From contig NZ_CP059165.1 of assembly GCF_013466425.1 (NCBI RefSeq), positions 2,480,001 through 2,544,000 of the forward strand: 64,000 nt of DNA, written 5' to 3'. This stretch comes from Mycobacterium vicinigordonae (GTDB lineage Bacteria; Actinomycetota; Actinomycetes; Mycobacteriales; Mycobacteriaceae). The position numbers and the translations under genes were made by a program. Below the pieces are notes generated by a model. That model was not told the origin of the DNA. It saw nothing but the letters and a program-made list of their open reading frames with translations, and did not search any database. Positions 14,769 to 35,464 of this stretch are shown here, one piece after another (position 1 is the stretch's first letter; the number at the start of each line of letters is the position of its first letter).

Positions 14769-16826
14769 TTAGGTGGATTCGCCCTGAGCGCCGACATTGC
14801 CGGAGTAAAAGTCCACAAATGGCGAGCCGCCGAAGCCGCCTGACCCGTACAACTGCCCGCCCCGTCCGCCCTGCTGGAACGGTTGTGTGCCGCCGCCACC
14901 GCCCCCCGTGTTGCCCGAACCGCCGGGTAGACCGTCAATGGCAATCGGAAGACCATTGGTTGGATCGATCCCGGCGTATCCGCCTTGGCCGCCGCCGCCG
15001 CCGTGACTGTCAAGGTCTCCTGCGCCGCCCGCTCCGCCCATCCCTATCGTGCGCTGGTCGAAACCTTGCGCCAGACCACCGGACCCGCCGCTGCCGGACG
15101 TACCACCCGGATTGCCGGGTGCGCCGCCGCCTCCACCGCCTCCGCCCCAGAACGAATTCGCGAAGGCGTCGCCGCCACCGCCACCGCCACCGCCGCCGCC
15201 ACCTTTGCCGCCGGTCTCCCCGGAGGCTGGGGCGCCGCCTCCGCCGTGCCCGCCGCCGCCTCCTGCTCCGCCACCGCGGCCCTGGACGCCGTCGAAGAAC
15301 CCCACCCCGCCGAATCCACCAGTGCCACCCGTGCCGCCCTGCCCGCCGGCCGCTCCGCCACCGCCACTGTTGCCGCCCGTACCACCCGCGCCTCCTCCGC
15401 CGCCACCACCACCTGCCACGAAGGAGGTGGAACTAATCTGGGTGGCGCCATTGCCGCCGGTGCCGCCGGTGCCGCCCTGTCCGCCTTGGCCTCCCAGGGT
15501 TGCGCCGGCACCCGGTGCGCCTCCGTCGCCACCGGTGCCGCCTGCGCCGCCTTGGCCGCCCTCCCCACCGGCAAGAACGCTGGCGTTGCTGACCATGAGG
15601 CCGCCCAGGCCGCCCTTCCCGCCGCCGCCGCCTGCGCCGCCCTGACCGCCGATGCCGCCGCCGGCACCATCGATACCTGCACCACCTGCGCCACCAGCAC
15701 CACCCGTCCCGCCGGCCCCACCCTTCAACCCTTTGGTGGGCACTTTCCCGCCATCGCCGATGTCGCCCTCGCCACCGTCGCCGCCGCCGCCCCCGATGCC
15801 GCCGGTGCCACCGTGCCCATTGGCTCCGAACAATCCACCGGCGCCGGCCGCTCCGCCGGCCCCAGCGGCGCCGCCGGTACCGCCGGGGCCACCTTCGGCG
15901 TCCATCCGCACGCCACTCCCGCCTGCCCCGCCCAGGCCGCCGGTTCCCCCGGTGCCGCCGTCTCCTCCGGAACTCAGCAGCCCATAACTCGCCCCGCCAG
16001 CACCTCCCGCGCCGCCGTTCCCGCCCGTATATCCGACGCCCGAGAAGGGGCCCCCGCCGTTCGGGCCCGCGGCGCCAATCCCGCCATCTCCTCCGATTCC
16101 ACCGGCACCGGCGCCGCCACCCCACAGCGCCCGGCCGGCGCCTCCCGCGCCGCCGGTTCCGCCGTTGCCTCCCGGACTGTCGACACCGGGCCCCCCGGTT
16201 CCGCCGCCACCGCCCGTGCCGCCGAAGCCGCTCAACCAGCCTCCCGCCCCGCCGGCGCCACCGGCGGCGCCGTTCTGCCCGGCAGCACCGCTCCCGCCGG
16301 CCCCACCAGCTCCGCCATCGCCCCAGAGCCCGGCGTTACCGCCCCGCCCTCCGTTCTGCCCGGACGCCCCGGAGCCGCCGGTGCCGCCATTGCCCCAGAG
16401 AATGCCGCCGTCGCCACCGGCTTGCCCCGTGCCGGGGGCTCCGTTAGTACCGTTGCCGATCAGCGGGCGACCGAGCAGCGTATTAGTGGGGGCGTTGATC
16501 AACGCCAGTAAGTCTTGCTCGATGGACTGCAGGGTGACGAGGTTGATGGCCTCGGCGCCTGCATACGATGAACCCCCGGCGCTTAGTGTGCGCAAGAAGT
16601 GGTCATGAAACTGCGCCGCGTGCGTTCCGAGGGCCTGGAAATCCTGCGCGTAGGCGCCGAACATCGCCGTGACGGCCGCCGACACCTCGTCGCCGGCCAA
16701 CGGGGCGATGATGGTAGTGACAGGCTGCGCCGCCGCAGCGGCCGACTCGAGCGCCTGCCCGATCCCTCGCAAATCACCCACCGCTGTAGCCAATGCCTCG
16801 GGTGCTGCGACCACGAAAGCTGACAT
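14769..16826 (-). CDS. PE_PGRS family protein (685 aa), PE_PGRS44 position
   Basis: This PE_PGRS protein lies directly downstream of fadD9 on the same strand, which is the place PE_PGRS44 (Rv2591) holds in M. tuberculosis by recalled gene order. The start is ATG 16826, with AAGGAGG 6 bases upstream; a longer frame from 16892 adds 22 non-family residues and is rejected. The Pro-Glu pair is at 9-10, YxxxE at 88-92 and the GRPLI linker at 119-123. The glycine-rich part is about 470 residues, lacks the 117-residue modules, and ends in a unique tail with PFVDFYSGN. The PE domain differs from those of the neighbouring paralogues, so it is an older relative. Confidence 0.92.
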   Translation of the reverse strand: MSAFVVAAPEALATAVGDLRGIGQALESAAAAAQPVTTIIAPLAGDEVSAAVTAMFGAYAQDFQALGTHAAQFHDHFLRTLSAGGSSYAGAEAINLVTLQSIEQDLLALINAPTNTLLGRPLIGNGTNGAPGTGQAGGDGGILWGNGGTGGSGASGQNGGRGGNAGLWGDGGAGGAGGSGAAGQNGAAGGAGGAGGWLSGFGGTGGGGGTGGPGVDSPGGNGGTGGAGGAGRALWGGGAGAGGIGGDGGIGAAGPNGGGPFSGVGYTGGNGGAGGAGGASYGLLSSGGDGGTGGTGGLGGAGGSGVRMDAEGGPGGTGGAAGAGGAAGAGGLFGANGHGGTGGIGGGGGDGGEGDIGDGGKVPTKGLKGGAGGTGGAGGAGGAGIDGAGGGIGGQGGAGGGGGKGGLGGLMVSNASVLAGGEGGQGGAGGTGGDGGAPGAGATLGGQGGQGGTGGTGGNGATQISSTSFVAGGGGGGGGAGGTGGNSGGGGAAGGQGGTGGTGGFGGVGFFDGVQGRGGGAGGGGGHGGGGAPASGETGGKGGGGGGGGGGGDAFANSFWGGGGGGGGAPGNPGGTSGSGGSGGLAQGFDQRTIGMGGAGGAGDLDSHGGGGGQGGYAGIDPTNGLPIAIDGLPGGSGNTGGGGGGTQPFQQGGRGGQLYGSGGFGGSPFVDFYSGNVGAQGEST

Positions 16827-28482: not shown

Positions 28483-28502
28483 CAAAGGCGGAGGTGACCA
28501 AC

Positions 28503-30863
28503 GTGGCGGACGAAAAGAGCGTGCTGCAGGCTGCCGCGCCGCCCACCGAGCCGCTACCCGTCAGCGAGGTGCCCGAGCCGCCGGTTGAGCAACTCAAGAC
28601 CACTAGCAGCGCGTCCCGCCGGGTCCGGGCTCGGTTGGCCCGACGGATGACCGCGCGCAGCAGCGCCATCAACCCCGTCCTTGAGCCGCTGGTGGCGGTG
28701 CACCGCGAGGTCTACCCGAAGGCCGACCTCTCGATGCTGCAGCGCGCATACGAGGTCGCCAACCAGCGGCACGCCACGCAAATGCGGCACTCCGGGGACC
28801 CCTACATCACTCATCCGCTAGCCGTGGCCAACATCCTGGCCGAGTTGGGCATGGACACCACCACATTGGTGGCCGCGCTGCTGCACGACACCGTCGAGGA
28901 CACCGGGTACACCATCGAGGCGCTGTCCGAGGAATTCGGCGAGGAGGTGGGTCACCTCGTCGACGGGGTGACCAAGCTGGACCGTGTCGTGCTGGGCAGT
29001 GCCGCCGAGGGCGAAACCATTCGCAAGATGATTACCGCGATGGCCCGTGACCCGCGGGTGCTGGTGATCAAGGTGGCCGACCGGCTGCACAACATGCGCA
29101 CCATGCGGTTCCTGCCTCCGGAGAAGCAGGCTCGCAAGGCCCGCGAAACGCTGGAAGTCATTGCGCCCCTGGCGCATCGGCTCGGTATGGCCAGCGTCAA
29201 ATGGGAGCTGGAGGACTTGGCGTTCGCGATTCTGCATCCCAAGAAGTACGAGGAGATCGTCCGGCTGGTCGCCGGCCGTGCCCCGTCCCGCGACACCTAC
29301 CTGGCCAAGGTTCGCGCCGAGATCACCTCGACGTTAAGCGCATCGAAGATCAAGGCGACGGTGGAGAGCCGCCCCAAGCACTACTGGTCGATCTATCAGA
29401 AGATGATCGTCAAGGGCCGCGACTTCGACGACATCCACGACCTGGTCGGAATCCGGATCCTGTGCGACGAGATTCGGGACTGCTATGCCGCGGTGGGTGT
29501 GGTGCACTCGCTGTGGCAGCCGATGGCGGGGCGCTTCAAGGACTACATCGCCCAGCCTCGATACGGGGTGTACCAGTCGCTGCACACCACTGTCGTCGGG
29601 CCGGAAGGCAAACCGCTGGAAGTGCAGATCCGTACCCGCGACATGCACCACACCGCCGAATTCGGCATCGCCGCGCACTGGCGCTACAAGGAAACCAAGG
29701 GACGCAACGGAGTTCCGCATCCGAACACGGCCGCCGAGATCGACGACATGGCTTGGATGCGTCAGCTGCTCGACTGGCAGCGGGAAGCTGCCGACCCCGG
29801 CGAGTTCCTGGAGTCCCTGCGCTACGACCTTGCGGTACAAGAGATTTTCGTGTTCTCGCCCAAAGGCGATGTCTTCACGCTGCCGGCCGGCTCCACGCCG
29901 GTGGACTTCGCCTACGCCGTCCACACCGAGGTCGGGCACCGCTGCATCGGCGCCCGGGTCAACGGCCGCTTGGTAGCGCTGGAACGCAAGCTCGAAAATG
30001 GGGAAGTCGTGGAGGTTTTCACCTCCAAGGCGCACACCGCGGGGCCTTCGCGGGACTGGCAGCAGTTTGTGGTGTCGCCGCGGGCTAAGACCAAGATCCG
30101 GCAGTGGTTCGCCAAGGAACGCCGTGAGGAAGCACTGGAGGCCGGCAAGGAGGCCATTTCCCGCGAGGTTCGCCGGGGCGGACTTCCGTTGCAGCGCTTG
30201 GTAAATGGCGGGTCGATGGCCGCGGTGGCGCATGAGTTGCACTACACCGACGTGTCGGCGATGTACACCGCGATCGGTGAGGGGCACGTCTCGGCGCGGC
30301 ACGTCGTGCAACGCTTGGTGGCCGAACTCGGCGGCATCGATCAGGCCGAGGAGGACCTGGCCGAACGTTCCACGCCGGCGACCATGCCGCGGCGCCCGCG
30401 CAGCACCGAGGACGTCGGTGTCTCGGTTCCTGGCGCGCCGGGCGTGCTGACCAAGCTGGCCAAGTGCTGCACTCCGGTGCCCGGCGACCAGATCATGGGT
30501 TTCGTCACCCGCGGGGGTGGGGTCAGCGTGCACCGCACCGACTGCACCAATGCCGCGTCCCTGCAGCAGCAGGCGGAGCGGATCATCGAGGTGCTCTGGG
30601 CCCCGTCGCCGTCGTCGGTGTTCCTGGTGGCGATCCAGGTGGAGGCGCTGGACCGGCACCGGCTGCTTTCGGATGTGACGCGGGTGCTGGCCGACGAGAA
30701 GGTGAACATCCTGTCGGCGTCGGTCACCACGTCGGGTGACCGGGTGGCGATCAGCCGGTTTACCTTCGAGATGGGCGACCCCAAGCACCTGGGGCATCTG
30801 CTGAACGTGGTGCGTAACGTCGAGGGCGTTTACGACGTGTACCGGGTGACGTCAGCTTCCTGA
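28503..30863 (+). CDS. rel: Bifunctional (p)ppGpp synthetase/hydrolase Rel, 786 aa
   Basis: Stringent-response enzyme that makes and degrades (p)ppGpp. The HD hydrolase domain contains [10 protein letters not shown] (His-Asp at about 128-129). The synthetase domain contains RFKD at about 344-347, the form found in bifunctional Rel enzymes rather than monofunctional RelA, and EVQIRT. A TGS domain (about 448-507), a Cys-containing linker (KCCTPVPGD) and a C-terminal ACT domain follow. The start is GTG 28503, with GGAGG 8 bases upstream, giving the family N-terminus; GTG 28494 lies inside that ribosome binding site. It is very close to M. tuberculosis Rel (Rv2583c). The kinase gene on the other strand ends 26 bases away. 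Confidence 0.96.
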
Positions 30864-30889: not shown

Positions 30890-32014
30890 TTACGGTGTCT
30901 CCTCGGTTGGTTCGGAGGTGACGGTGGTCGTCACCGTGCTCTCCGTCATCGGCTCCGAGCTGTCGGACGACTCGGGGTACTCACTGCTCGTCACGCTGGT
31001 CGTGGTGACTGGTGTCGGCTTGTCCGGGGGAGCGTCGTTACCGCTGGCGAAGAACGCCACCGCTGCGGCCACCAGAACCAGCGTCAGGCCCGAGCCGGCG
31101 ACGGTCGCGATCAGCGCGGCGCGACTGCCCGCCTTGACCGGCTGCGGCGAGTAGTCCGGCCCCGTATCGGGCGGTGGCGGGGGTAACGCGACGGCTGCAC
31201 CGCCCAGCGCCGCCCGGGCGGCGTCGCCGAGTTCGGTCACCGTCTGAAACCGCGTCCGCGGATCCTTGGCCAGTGCTCGCGCGACCACCGCGTCGAAGGC
31301 CGGTGGCACGTCGTGAAACACGGCCGCCGGGCGCGGGGGTGGGGCGTGGAAGTGAGCAGAGATCTGCTCTTCATACGTGTCGCCGGGAAACGGTCTGGAT
31401 CCGGTCAGGCATTCGTAGAGCACGCAGCCCAGGGAATACACGTCAGCGCGGGAATCCGTTATGCCCCTGAATCTTTCGGGGGCCAGATAGGCCAGGGTGC
31501 CCATCGTCTGCCCGGTGCTAGTGAGCGAGGTGTCGGTTTGGGCCCTTGCCAGCCCGAAGTCGATCAGGTAGACAAAATCCCGGGCGTGAGCGACCAGGAT
31601 GTTGGACGGCTTGACGTCCCGGTGCACCAACCCGGCGCGATGCGCGCTTTCTAAGGCTGCCGCCGTCTGGTCGATGATTGCCACCGTCTGTGCGGGGGTC
31701 AGCCGCCCGCCCTTCTCGGCGATGAACTTCACCAGGTCGCGGCCGTCGACCAGCCGCATGTCGACATACAGTCGCCCGTCGATCGCGCCGAAGCTGTGAA
31801 TGGGCACAACATGCGGGTCGCTGAGGCTGGCGGCGATACGGGCTTCGCGGCGGAATCGTTGCTGGAACTCCTCGTCCTCGACCAGGTGCGGGGGAAGCAG
31901 CTTGATCGCCACGACGCGGTCGGTCTGGGTGTCGTAGGCGCGGTAGACCTGACCCATGCCGCCGCGTCCCAGCAATCCCTGTAACTGGTACCGACCGAAT
32001 GAGCTATCGGTCAC
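30890..32014 (-). CDS. Membrane Ser/Thr protein kinase with Ser/Thr-rich outer tail, 374 aa
   Basis: Eukaryotic-type protein kinase. The glycine loop is LGRGGMGQVYRAYD, the ATP lysine is Lys38 (VVAIK), HRD is at 131-133, DFG at 152-154, and the activation loop STGQTMGTLAYLAPERF resembles the autophosphorylated loop of PknB-like kinases. A proline-rich linker leads to one membrane segment (about 298-324) and an extracytoplasmic tail of some 50 residues, dominated by Thr, Ser and Glu, with no folded domain evident. GTG 32014 follows AAGGAGG with 3 bases between. It is the third gene of the ppiB operon, 25 bases after the kinase-cyclophilin gene. I do not recall a kinase at this locus in M. tuberculosis. 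The sensor input and substrates are unknown. Confidence 0.93.
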   Translation of the reverse strand: MTDSSFGRYQLQGLLGRGGMGQVYRAYDTQTDRVVAIKLLPPHLVEDEEFQQRFRREARIAASLSDPHVVPIHSFGAIDGRLYVDMRLVDGRDLVKFIAEKGGRLTPAQTVAIIDQTAAALESAHRAGLVHRDVKPSNILVAHARDFVYLIDFGLARAQTDTSLTSTGQTMGTLAYLAPERFRGITDSRADVYSLGCVLYECLTGSRPFPGDTYEEQISAHFHAPPPRPAAVFHDVPPAFDAVVARALAKDPRTRFQTVTELGDAARAALGGAAVALPPPPPDTGPDYSPQPVKAGSRAALIATVAGSGLTLVLVAAAVAFFASGNDAPPDKPTPVTTTSVTSSEYPESSDSSEPMTESTVTTTVTSEPTEETP

Positions 32015-32039
32015 GAGCCTCCTTCGAGCTAGTCGCGCA

Positions 32040-33833
32040 CTAGTCGGGCAAAACTGAGGTGATCACCACGTCGGTGGCGGGCGATCCGTCCTGGCCACCT
32101 CCTACCACACCCGCCGCGGCGATCCTGTCCAGGGTAGCCAGTCCATCGGCCTGGACGGTGCCAAACACCGTGTAGTTGGGCGGCAACGCGGAGTCGCGGT
32201 AGACGAGGAAGAATTGGCTGCCGTTGGTGTCGGGTCCGGCGTTGGCCATGGCCAGGGTGCCGCGTGGATAGACGACCGGTTGCTGCAGCTTGGGGTCCTG
32301 CGCGGGGTATTGGTCAGTGGGGTATTCGTTGCCGAATTGGTAGCCCGGACCGCCGGTGCCGTTACCAGCGGGGTGGCCGCACTGCAGTACCGACAGCGCC
32401 TTTGCCGTAGTCAGGCGGTGACACTTTGTGTCCTTGAAATAGCCCTGAGTGGCGAGACTGATGAAACTGTTGACGGTGCAAGGGGATTCGTTATTGGCCA
32501 GCATCAAACCGATGTTGCCCTGGTTGGTCACCATGCTGACGCTGACCTGGGCGGGGTCGGTGGGTACCGTGCCGGTGCGCGGCGGTTTGACTTCCTTGGC
32601 AGCCCGTTCCGACGTTGCCGGGTACTGGCAGTTTGCCCCGACGCCGGACGACGGCCGAAACGGCGGGAGCGGTGTCGCGCTGCCGAATTGTGCAGGTGGC
32701 GGGCTGGCGAAGCTGGAGTCGACCGAGGTGCCCCGCGACGTGGTCGAGCCGCTGTGGTCGTCCGTCCCGACCGCGACGGCGACGGCGGTCACCACGGCGA
32801 CGACCGCAACCGCCGCGGCAACCGCCCCGCCGGCGATCCACTGAATTCGGCGTCGTCGGGCCAGCTCGGCGCGTTGCTGGCGCTCTGGCTGCACCCCAAA
32901 ATTCGGCTCCGTGCGCAAGTGTTCGCTGGCCGGGGGCCAGCCGGGAAAGCCGGCAGGTTGGATCGCAGGGTGGGGGGCTGGTGCGTGCGCAATGGGGGTG
33001 GTCCACGCGGAGCCGACCGGGCCGGTCAGGGCTACTCGCGCGGCTCTGGCGAACTCGGACGCAGTTCGGTACCGGTCCTGGGGGTTCTTGGCCATACCCC
33101 GAGCAATCACCGCGTCCAGCGCTTGCGGTAGGTCGGGACAGCGCACCGACGGACGCGGCGGCGGCTTCGTCAGGTGGCCCGCGACCTGCTCCTCGAGACT
33201 GTCGCCGGGGTAGGGCCGCTCGCCGGTGAGGCATTCGTAGAGCACGCAGGCCAAGGCGTATACGTCCGAACCCGGATCCGTTGTGCCGTTGAAACGTTCG
33301 GGTGCCATGTAGGCCAGCGTGCCGATCATGTGCCCGGTCTTGGTCATCGCGGTGTCCGCCGCTGCCCGGGCGATCCCGAAGTCGATGAGATAGGCGAAGT
33401 CGCGCCCGGTGATCAAGATATTCGACGGCTTCACATCGCGATGTACCAATTGCTCCTGGTGCGCGCTGTCCAGTGCGCTGGCCACCTGTTCGATGATCGC
33501 TACGGCTCGTGCGGCGTTGAGTCGTCCACCCTCGTCGGCGATGAGCGTGCCCAAGTCGCGGCCCTCGATGAGCCGCATGTCGACATACAATCGACCGTCG
33601 ATCTCGCCGTAGTTGTGGATGGGCACCACGTGCGGGTCGTTGATGGTCGCCGCCGTGCGCGCCTCGCGACGGAATCGTTGCTCGAATGCCGCGTCCCCGG
33701 CGAGGTCCGCGGGCAGCACCTTGACGGCAACGATGCGTTCGGTGATCGTGTCGTGGGCCCGGTAGACCTCACCCATTCCGCCGCGGCCCAACATATCGAG
33801 AAGTTGATACCGGCCGAACGGCTGTGCTGCCAC
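32040..33833 (-). CDS. Ser/Thr protein kinase fused through a membrane segment to a cyclophilin domain, 597 aa
   Basis: A Hanks-type kinase (about 7-270: glycine loop LGRGGMGEVYRAHD, Lys38, HRD 131-133, DFG 151-153, activation loop TKTGHMIGTLAYMAPERF) is followed by a proline-rich juxtamembrane part, basic ELARRRR, one membrane segment (about 332-356) and, outside, a cyclophilin-like domain (about 424-597). The cyclophilin keeps the catalytic-type Arg (CHR, 473) and the NGSQFF segment, and closely matches the PpiB coded just upstream, including the GANCQYPAT...KEVKPPRTG lead-in and the VITSVLPD end. Four Cys residues (402, 452, 471, 485) are shared with PpiB. GTG start; no strong ribosome binding site, so it may be coupled to ppiB, whose stop is 15 bases upstream. 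The outer domain probably senses or binds proline-containing peptides. Confidence 0.93.
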   Translation of the reverse strand: MAAQPFGRYQLLDMLGRGGMGEVYRAHDTITERIVAVKVLPADLAGDAAFEQRFRREARTAATINDPHVVPIHNYGEIDGRLYVDMRLIEGRDLGTLIADEGGRLNAARAVAIIEQVASALDSAHQEQLVHRDVKPSNILITGRDFAYLIDFGIARAAADTAMTKTGHMIGTLAYMAPERFNGTTDPGSDVYALACVLYECLTGERPYPGDSLEEQVAGHLTKPPPRPSVRCPDLPQALDAVIARGMAKNPQDRYRTASEFARAARVALTGPVGSAWTTPIAHAPAPHPAIQPAGFPGWPPASEHLRTEPNFGVQPERQQRAELARRRRIQWIAGGAVAAAVAVVAVVTAVAVAVGTDDHSGSTTSRGTSVDSSFASPPPAQFGSATPLPPFRPSSGVGANCQYPATSERAAKEVKPPRTGTVPTDPAQVSVSMVTNQGNIGLMLANNESPCTVNSFISLATQGYFKDTKCHRLTTAKALSVLQCGHPAGNGTGGPGYQFGNEYPTDQYPAQDPKLQQPVVYPRGTLAMANAGPDTNGSQFFLVYRDSALPPNYTVFGTVQADGLATLDRIAAAGVVGGGQDGSPATDVVITSVLPD

Positions 33834-33848
33834 GAACCGGCCCAGGCC

Positions 33849-34766
33849 TCAGTCAGGTAGCACGGAGGTGATCACCACATCGGTCGCGGGCGCACCTTCG
33901 GGACCGCCACCGGCGACACCCGCCGAGGCGATCTTGTCCAAGGTGGTCAGCCCGTCGGCCTGGATCGTGCCGAACACCGTGTAGTCGGGCGGCAATGCCG
34001 AGTCGCGGTAGACCATGAAGAACTGGCTGCCGTTGCTGTTCGGCTTTTCCGAGTGAGCCATGGCCAGGGTGCCGCGCGGATAGATAACGGGCTGCTTGAG
34101 CTTGGGATCGTTGGGCGGGAACTGATTGGTGGGGAATTCGTTGGCGAAGTCGTAGCCCGGTCCGCCGGTGCCGGTGCCGGTGGGGTCGCCGCACTGCAGG
34201 ACAGAGAGCCCCGCGGACGCGACCAGCCGATGGCATTTGGTGTCCTTGAAGAAGCCCTGCGTGGCGAGACTAATGAAACTGTTGACCGTGCAGGGGGATT
34301 GGTTGTTGGTCAGCATCAAACCGATGTTGCCCTGGTTGGTCACCATGCTGACGCTGACCTGGGCGGGCTCGGTGGGTACTTTGCCGGTGCGCGGCGGCTT
34401 GACTTCCTTGGCGGCCTTCTCGTCTTTGGTCGCTGGGTACTGACAATTGGCGCCCAAGTTGGCCGGAGCTTTGAACTGCGGCATCGGCACAGCGCCGGCG
34501 AGGTCGACGGGCGGCAGATTCGTGGCAGCCGAACCTGAGGTCGCGCTGCTGGGCGTGGTCGACGCCGACGGTTTGCCTTTGTGGTCGTTCTTGCTGACGA
34601 CGACGGCGACCACCACTGCCGCCACCACGGCGACCGCGGCCACTCCAGCACCGGCGATGGTCAGGATGCGTCGCCTCTTGGCCTGCTGGGCACGGCGCTC
34701 CAGCTGTCGCTCGAGTTTGCGCTTGGCGGTTTCCCGTCGCTGCTTGTTCGTTGGCACGGCCGCCAT
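33849..34766 (-). CDS. ppiB: Membrane-anchored cyclophilin-type peptidyl-prolyl isomerase PpiB, 305 aa
   Basis: Cyclophilin that catalyses cis-trans isomerisation of X-Pro bonds in exported proteins, orthologous to Rv2582. A basic coiled N-terminus (KRKLERQLERRAQQAKRRR) precedes one membrane segment (about 34-57), a Ser/Thr/Pro linker and the cyclophilin domain (about 130-305). The active-site Arg is in CHRL (180), and the Gln/Phe segment in NSNGSQFF is kept; positions equivalent to Trp121 and His126 of human CypA are changed (LPPDYTVFG), as I recall for mycobacterial PpiB. ATG 34766 has GGAAAG directly upstream. First gene of an operon with two kinases, divergent from the glyoxalase-type gene 35 bases away. 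Confidence 0.94.
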   Translation of the reverse strand: MAAVPTNKQRRETAKRKLERQLERRAQQAKRRRILTIAGAGVAAVAVVAAVVVAVVVSKNDHKGKPSASTTPSSATSGSAATNLPPVDLAGAVPMPQFKAPANLGANCQYPATKDEKAAKEVKPPRTGKVPTEPAQVSVSMVTNQGNIGLMLTNNQSPCTVNSFISLATQGFFKDTKCHRLVASAGLSVLQCGDPTGTGTGGPGYDFANEFPTNQFPPNDPKLKQPVIYPRGTLAMAHSEKPNSNGSQFFMVYRDSALPPDYTVFGTIQADGLTTLDKIASAGVAGGGPEGAPATDVVITSVLPD

Positions 34767-34801
34767 CTTTCCACGGCTATGGGGATGGGAAACTGGGCAC
34801 C

Positions 34802-35464
34802 GTGTTGATCACCGGATTTCCCGCCGGGTTGTTGCAATGCAACTGCTACGTGCTGGCCGAGCGGCCAGGCGCCGACGCCGTCATTGTCGACCCGGGCCAG
34901 CGCGCGATGGGCCAGTTGCGGCGCATCCTCGACCAGAACCGGCTGACCCCGGCCGCGGTGCTGATCACCCATGGCCACATCGACCACATCTGGTCTGCGC
35001 AGAAGGTGTCCGACACCTTCGGCTGCCCCACCTACATCCACCCGGAAGACCGGTTCATGCTGAAGGACCCGATCTACGGGCTGGGCCCGCGGGCAGCGCA
35101 GCTGGTGGCTGGCGCGTTCTTCCGGGAGCCTAAGCAGGTCGTCGAGCTGGACCGCGACGGCGACAAGATCGACCTCGGCGGTATCTCAGTCAACGTCGAC
35201 CACACCCCAGGCCACACCCGCGGATCGGTGTGTTTCCGAGTGCTTGCCGACAAAGACCTGGTGTTTACCGGCGATACGTTGTTCGAGCGGTCCATCGGCC
35301 GCACTGACTTGTTCGGCGGCAGCGGCCGGGACCTGCTGCGTTCGATCGTCGACAAATTGCTGGTGCTCGATGACGAGACGGTGATACTCCCGGGCCACGG
35401 CAACCCGACGACCATCGGCGCCGAGCGTCGCTTCAACCCGTTCCTCGAAGGTTTGAGCCCGTGA
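34802..35464 (+). CDS. Metallo-beta-lactamase fold hydrolase, glyoxalase II-like, 220 aa
   Basis: Binuclear-metal hydrolase of the glyoxalase II-like branch, orthologous to Rv2581c. The metal motif is THGHIDH (His57, His59, Asp61, His62), with further ligands in [16 protein letters not shown] and LPGHGNPTT. It would hydrolyse a thioester or a related bond; mycobacteria lack glutathione, so a mycothiol thioester is a reasonable guess but not shown. GTG 34802 gives the family start ([10 protein letters not shown]); an in-frame ATG at 34751 would run back through the ppiB start. Its stop overlaps the hisS start by 4 bases. Confidence 0.9.

Follow-up and report, generated by a model that had tools for sequence, protein, structure and literature searches.

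The stretch of DNA analysed here (the window; 64,000 nucleotides of the Mycobacterium vicinigordonae genome) contains at 32040..33833, on the minus strand, a single open reading frame with a GTG start encoding a 597-residue protein, designated KC, in which a protein kinase, a membrane segment and a cyclophilin are fused. A Hanks-type Ser/Thr kinase domain occupies residues 9-255 (33069..33809, minus strand; Pfam PF00069, 145 bits) and a cyclophilin domain occupies residues 432-594 (32052..32540, minus strand; Pfam PF00160, Pro_isomerase, 87.2 bits). Both exceed the Pfam cut-offs (31.7 bits for Pkinase and 21.7 bits for Pro_isomerase), which agrees with the preliminary description of a complete Hanks-type kinase, one membrane segment and a PpiB-like cyclophilin in one frame. 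Between the domains, a membrane helix was predicted at about residues 333-355 (32769..32837, minus strand), hydropathy being highest in the 19-mer starting at residue 337 (mean 2.81), after RRRR. An AlphaFold2 model (22 rows; mean pLDDT 75.0, pTM 0.48), which is uninformative on domain orientation, has a helix at residues 317-351 and pLDDT below 50 for segments 275-316 and 350-382, with values mostly of 70-96 in the kinase and cyclophilin blocks that drop at the activation loop and around 490-500. Sequence and model together give the layout of a receptor-type Ser/Thr protein kinase, with an N-terminal kinase, one membrane helix and a folded C-terminal domain, and the predicted topology should place the cyclophilin outside the membrane and the kinase inside. 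A chance open frame or a sequencing artefact was ruled out, because in other genomes the same frame also runs unbroken through both domains. The host genome, a single contig of 6.27 Mb, has three cyclophilin genes (15063-15551, ppiB and KC).

The stand-alone cyclophilin gene ppiB (33849..34766, minus strand), encoding 305 residues with an N-terminal hydrophobic anchor, lies 15 bp upstream of KC, and a gene for a second kinase of 374 residues, K2 (30890..32014, minus strand), which has a hydrophobic segment but lacks a Pfam outer domain, lies 25 bp downstream; the sequence GAAGGAGG lies at 32018-32025. Beyond K2 is the convergent right-hand neighbour of the locus, relA (28494..30863, plus strand), and beyond ppiB are the divergent left-hand neighbour, a gene for a metallo-beta-lactamase-fold hydrolase (34751..35464, plus strand), and hisS. 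Behind its hydrophobic segment K2 has only a Ser/Thr/Pro-rich tail; in the kinase tree it clusters (99/97) with the kinases that stand alone at the locus in M. gordonae and M. asiaticum. Scanning for motifs gave five terminator-like sites, every one on the plus strand, and no promoter-like site. The short gaps of 15 and 25 bp suggest that ppiB, KC and K2 are co-transcribed as one transcript. This proximity, and the lack of a Pfam outer domain in K2, would suit an inside-out arrangement in which cytosolic cues or K2 activate the kinase, the kinase in turn governs the outer isomerase or the export of its clients, and the outer domain is the output. We consider this arrangement improbable: the gap between ppiB and the kinase in the named loci described below ranges from -260 to 445 bp (median 75; 50 pairs, mechanical start codons), and tight coupling is therefore not general; the isomerase site is eroded in one clade; and the single helix between long low-confidence linkers in the model would make ligand-induced dimerisation the more natural mode.

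The kinase half contains the catalytic set Lys38, Glu57, H131-R132-D133, N138, D151-F152-G153 and T164-K165-T166-G167, and its Pfam domain, catalytic Lys, HRD, DFG and activation-loop Thr identify it, as far as sequence can, as a Hanks-type Ser/Thr kinase. The nearest solved sequence was PknE of M. tuberculosis (2h34, 311.8 bits), from which KC differs in having an outer domain that is a cyclophilin of ppiB origin; 'DsbG' was not found among the matches listed in the literature on PknE. The top NCBIfam match was StpK7 (NF052427, MSMEG_1200; 458.2 bits over residues 1-278), which resembles the kinase half but whose match ends before the outer part, and membership was rejected at the NCBIfam cut-off of 900 bits. 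Membership of the PASTA kinases (NF033483, PknB_PASTA) was likewise rejected, at 322 bits against a cut-off of 450. KC has the receptor layout in common with the PASTA kinases PknB, PrkC and StkP and the propeller kinase PknD, and differs from them in that no PASTA or propeller domain was detected. Among the fusions at the named loci, K38, E57, HRD, N138 and DFG were retained in every sequence with letters there (41/41 or 42/42) and the activation-loop position T166 was T in 37/42, while K38, D133 and D151 were all retained in 114/119 database fusions, at least one being missing from the alignment in the other five.

Site residues of the outer domain were mapped via an alignment to PPIL1 (2x7k), which gave R473, Q484, Q540, F542, L550 and Y554 as the putative isomerase-site residues, equivalent to positions 55, 63, 111, 113, 122 and 126 of human CypA. 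With R473, Q484, Q540 and F542 at the positions of CypA R55, Q63, Q111 and F113, the putative catalytic site is intact. Replacement of CypA F60 by S481 (ppiB also has S, G or A there) means that the proline pocket is not of the textbook type, and CypA W121 is A549 in KC. The structure 7l6y matched the cyclophilin domain (E 2.5e-19); in a structure-library fold comparison run with the KC model as a whole, kinase chains filled the match list. All four cysteines conserved in ppiB are found in KC (C402, C452, C471 and C485, within 32379-32630), and they are conserved in the stand-alone and most fused cyclophilins: Cys 402, 452 and 471 were retained in all four cyclophilin groups (with a gap at 402 in one stand-alone row) and Cys 485 in 32/38 fused cyclophilins of the eroded group defined below. 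With Cys 471 and 485 on either side of the catalytic Arg and Gln, a redox-sensitive pocket is conceivable. By its domain score and catalytic-site residues the outer domain is predicted to be a cyclophilin-type prolyl isomerase, and the N-terminal anchor and four conserved cysteines assign the outer part, at the level of primary structure, to the mycobacterial PpiB type.

A protein-database search for the joint architecture revealed a gene family: all 120 proteins listed for the KC query, its own among them, carry both Pfam domains, and at least 24 of the 198 Mycobacterium genomes sampled have a full-length KC-type fusion. The latter figure combines 11 carriers detected with a profile of 18 fusions among the first 98 genomes (in G017, G046 and G058 the single-sequence search had listed no full-length match) and 13 among the other 100, which were covered by the single-sequence search only; that search listed 24 full-length matches in 21/198 genomes. 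The gene is missing from many Mycobacterium genomes. No match at E <=1e-100 spanned the fusion profile in 61 genomes of the family, and thus fusions were found in 0/59 genomes from its other genera. A search with the cyclophilin half across 249 genomes of the order yielded open-frame lengths, which cannot prove fusion. Carriage of KC as plasmid cargo was rejected, as 0/10 matching plasmid records reach 80% of the query.

The genome scan gave 77 named loci, 56 with the ppiB-relA locus or part of it and 21 with kinases elsewhere. A fusion was present in 38 of the 56 (36 whole), a kinase without cyclophilin in nine (M. gordonae, M. asiaticum and kin) and no kinase in five (M. attenuatum, M. persicum, M. 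innocens, M. simiae and M. gastri), with four cut or broken; since the scan gave best matches only, these shares are biased towards carriers of sequences like the query. The two fusions that are not whole are those of M. genavense (split, two frames) and E1747 (cut by a contig end). Carriers include M. intermedium, M. szulgai, M. angelicum, M. colombiense, M. interjectum and M. triplex. All 38 fusions adjoin ppiB on its relA side save for contig-edge cases, in which ppiB (E1747) or relA (M. intermedium) is off the contig; relA is 3 to 4 kb distant in two loci (L048 and L049). Five loci (L039, L043, L044, L058 and L128; examples are M. numidiamassiliense and M. rhizamassiliense) have a tandem pair of different fused kinases beside ppiB, two (L057, M. 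genavense; L072, M. parascrofulaceum) have the fusion broken into two overlapping frames, and in Mycobacterium sp. 4858 (L065) the locus is repeated in inverted order, perhaps through misassembly.

Local alignment showed that KC residues 301-597 (32043..32933, minus strand) are homologous to PpiB from residue 5 to its last residue, 305, including the cytosolic tail and membrane anchor. As the homology spans PpiB from residue 5 to its end, the KC outer part originates from ppiB, and tail, anchor, linker and cyclophilin domain, all of which KC contains, moved together. It had been proposed that a very close match to the adjacent ppiB reflected local duplication of that gene onto a kinase gene. 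The homology and the ppiB origin hold; the closeness was overstated, as KC and its own ppiB are 77.6% identical over the cyclophilin domain and 24/100 other cyclophilins are closer. Duplication in this lineage is not supported in the form proposed, given a kinase clade that spans other species, fused cyclophilins of 14 window-type proteins that do not form a clade, and a 57-bp identical tract. The tail motif RRxxAKxKL is present in 54/56 stand-alone proteins, 3/43 fusion frames from the window and loci (those of M. intermedium and of strains E2733 and ACS4054) and 8/119 database fusions, and has been lost from KC's own tail.

In a 51-row kinase tree (12 loci omitted by thinning of near-copies and two M. 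genavense pieces dropped), a starred branch separated KC and the kinases of M. intermedium, E2733 and ACS4054 from the remaining locus kinases; the rooting is unsure because outgroup rows fell on both sides (one on the far side). A 48-row tree, using 25 loci and 19/119 database fusions, placed 14 window-type kinases on one side of a 96/93 branch, and these were the rows picked as window-type (P0012 among them is M. intermedium again). Since this kinase clade is common to M. intermedium, E2733, ACS4054 and database proteins, the fusion is older than this species. For the cyclophilin halves of these 14 proteins a single clade was rejected (AU p 5e-6, lnL difference 144; 66 rows). In M. intermedium the fused cyclophilin and the neighbouring ppiB were sisters (100/100); the fused cyclophilins of E2733 and ACS4054 fell among ppiB genes from M. 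europaeum, M. colombiense and kin, in a tree of which one version was built without 19 loci. In the last two loci (L035 and L058) the fused cyclophilin resembles the usual ppiB of relatives and the stand-alone gene is on a longer branch, as if swapped. The KC cyclophilin was sister to its own ppiB at 98/96 in one tree and 88/95 in another; the pair was absent from one free tree search, the constrained pair scoring 5.07 log units better, and the pairing is thus moderately supported and sampling-dependent.

A 67-row cyclophilin tree of selected sequences united the fused cyclophilins with the ppiB of carriers and kin in one clade (100/97), which excludes both cyclophilins of 14 two-copy Mycobacterium genomes. 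The second stand-alone cyclophilin of such genomes was rejected as the source of the fusion: it forms its own clade (99/89), apart from the fused and neighbouring stand-alone sequences (100/97), in a test whose bootstrap is not fully settled. These genomes (L111-L124), which we guess to be rapid growers, and one of another genus (L125), carry two tandem stand-alone cyclophilins between the metallo-hydrolase gene and relA and no kinase; tandem ppiB at this position predates the genus or arose twice. A recent ppiB duplication in this species was rejected on the kinase tree, the identity ranking and the AU tests. An old fusion followed by gene conversion from ppiB would explain these data better than a fresh duplication, and repeated capture of ppiB is a possible alternative to conversion.

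The identical tract of 57 bp (32499..32555 in KC and 34311..34367 in ppiB, both on the minus strand; permutation p 2e-4) was read as a gene-conversion tract. Over KC residues 423-442, 59/60 bases and 11/11 fourfold sites are identical to ppiB, against only 41/72 fourfold sites over residues 443-597; over residues 423-442, window ppiB matched the ppiB of other species at 4 to 8 of 10 or 11 fourfold sites (five comparisons). The permutation test scored the longest identical run over variable sites in 42 fusion/own-ppiB pairs, and Bonferroni correction was passed by three, all of the window type: the window (57 bp), E2733 (105 bp) and M. intermedium (174 bp). ACS4054, the fourth window-type pair, failed the correction (p 0.036), as did three other pairs with p below 0.05. 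Because the test treats sites as independent, its result may be inflated by uneven conservation; the fourfold comparison, with its few sites, speaks against uneven conservation as the full cause. The tract speaks for gene conversion between the adjacent KC and ppiB after the fusion, recombination between the repeats seems to be ongoing, and the intact pocket of the window-type fusions may be a by-product of conversion from ppiB.

Apparently continuing recombination, together with the broken fusion copies L057 and L072, could also be taken to mean that the fusion is an accident of recombination, a neutral joining of neighbour genes with no function of its own. This is very improbable, given that dN/dS is far below 1 in both halves, that the fusion has been retained across many species and that the kinase residues are conserved. 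In seven pairs, dN/dS was 0.07-0.15 for the kinase, 0.05-0.25 for the cyclophilin and 0.17-0.50 for the linker (silent sites being near saturation in the window pair), and both domains are under purifying selection.

The six site residues (R, Q, Q, F, L and Y) were kept in 57/57 stand-alone cyclophilins, 4/4 window-type fusions and 3/3 fusions of the szulgai/angelicum/SCH5372311 group. The commoner kind among fused cyclophilins of the window and named loci is an eroded pocket, found in 38/45 (36 fusion frames, one of them an M. genavense piece, and two split-off halves). Q63 is left in four of these 38, F113 in six, L122 in six and Y126 in two; Q111 is still present in 37 and R55 in 32. Among 119 database fusions all six residues were present in 82, five in eight and fewer in 29, intact pockets being over-represented because these are the matches nearest the query. 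The eroded rows cluster in one clade of 32 in a quick kinase tree (129 rows, SH-aLRT 98), which contains most of the named species sampled and in which one row retains five site residues. Cyclophilin dN/dS was 0.09-0.25 in four eroded-type pairs; with values of at most 0.25 despite the eroded pocket, the outer domain is under selection even in the clade where catalysis appears to have been lost.

These two fates of the pocket bear on whether the cyclophilin simply acts as a tethered second enzyme, adding membrane-bound isomerase capacity beside PpiB, with the kinase working independently, e.g. on cytosolic targets at a constant level. PpiB is itself N-terminally anchored, the fusion retained its anchor and linker, the catalytic residues of KC are intact, and the 14 other Mycobacterium genomes with two stand-alone cyclophilins at this locus suggest that an extra dose alone may be selected. 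We nevertheless regard this explanation as rather unlikely, because a pure enzyme-dose role fails to explain the eroded clade, in which the isomerase site was lost and the domain is still fused and under purifying selection.

Several of the 120 listed database matches bear automatic names that join both functions, and JGI entries named 'serine/threonine protein kinase/cyclophilin family peptidyl-prolyl cis-trans isomerase' have the same architecture by automatic annotation. On whether the architecture was already well described, the answer is divided: it is present in databases (120/120 listed matches), and no paper describing it was found in the literature. A kinase-cyclophilin receptor was undescribed in titles and abstract openings of the full-text literature among the matches listed, a corpus with most subscription papers and all preprints outside it. 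The cyclophilin was rightly called an unusual outer domain, in that none turned up for a bacterial kinase in the literature searches. In the portions of text available, a survey of M. ulcerans kinases has 'cyclophilin' only in one reference title, twice (PMC4238996), a review of bacterial kinases has no 'cyclophilin' (PMC6213207), a review of pathogen cyclophilins has no 'kinase' (PMC13162259), and no fusion was seen in a PpiA paper with mycobacterial cyclophilin trees (PMC3913756). KC is thus a real, selected receptor layout that was found undescribed in the literature, the architecture itself being known from databases.

The named relative of window ppiB is M. tuberculosis PpiB (Rv2582), which we take to be the same locus and which differs from KC in having no kinase. 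In vitro, recombinant M. tuberculosis PpiB isomerises a prolyl peptide and also binds proteins in a non-native state (PMC4794191), and ligand-induced pairing of two receptors is the activation model for PASTA kinases (PMC6213207). We think it probable, with the coupling inferred, that KC works as a receptor-type Ser/Thr kinase whose PpiB-derived outer domain binds envelope or secreted polypeptides containing proline. By its sequence, KC descends from a PknE-like kinase gene that acquired nearly the whole of a ppiB gene at its 3' end, at the ppiB-relA locus in an ancestral Mycobacterium. In the proposed scheme the outer domain would recognise the proline-containing stretches of such polypeptides in the manner of PpiB, ligand binding would alter the pairing of two KC receptors, and the paired kinases would phosphorylate each other's activation loop at T164/T166. 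Binding and isomerisation may both occur in intact-pocket fusions (the window's and 82 of its 119 nearest database relatives), and selection without an intact pocket in the eroded clade would be expected if binding, not catalysis, matters there. Gene conversion with ppiB would hold the outer domain of some fusions, including the window's, near the neighbouring enzyme. It is a bolder and unlikely extension of the receptor reading that KC senses envelope folding stress by reading PpiB load via PpiB's own binding domain: conversion would keep a shared client specificity, the kinase would fire when clients exceed the capacity of the stand-alone enzyme, and the one clade that escaped homogenisation would have lost catalysis to become a pseudo-enzyme receptor for other ligands.

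For most mycobacterial receptor kinases, little is known about the ligands. The parent enzyme of the KC outer domain has known peptide substrates, so candidate ligands such as standard prolyl peptides and cyclosporin A are directly testable. Cyclosporin A is reported to bind M. tuberculosis PpiB (PMC6333787); the affinity of KC for it may be low, because Ala replaces Trp121 of human CypA. The fusion family offers a natural experiment, in which intact-pocket fusions stand beside eroded-pocket fusions with the kinases retained in nearly all. The data suggest a receptor and its parent enzyme that exchange sequence by gene conversion; to judge by the relatives in other mycobacteria, a protein that helps folding may have been recruited as a signal receptor.
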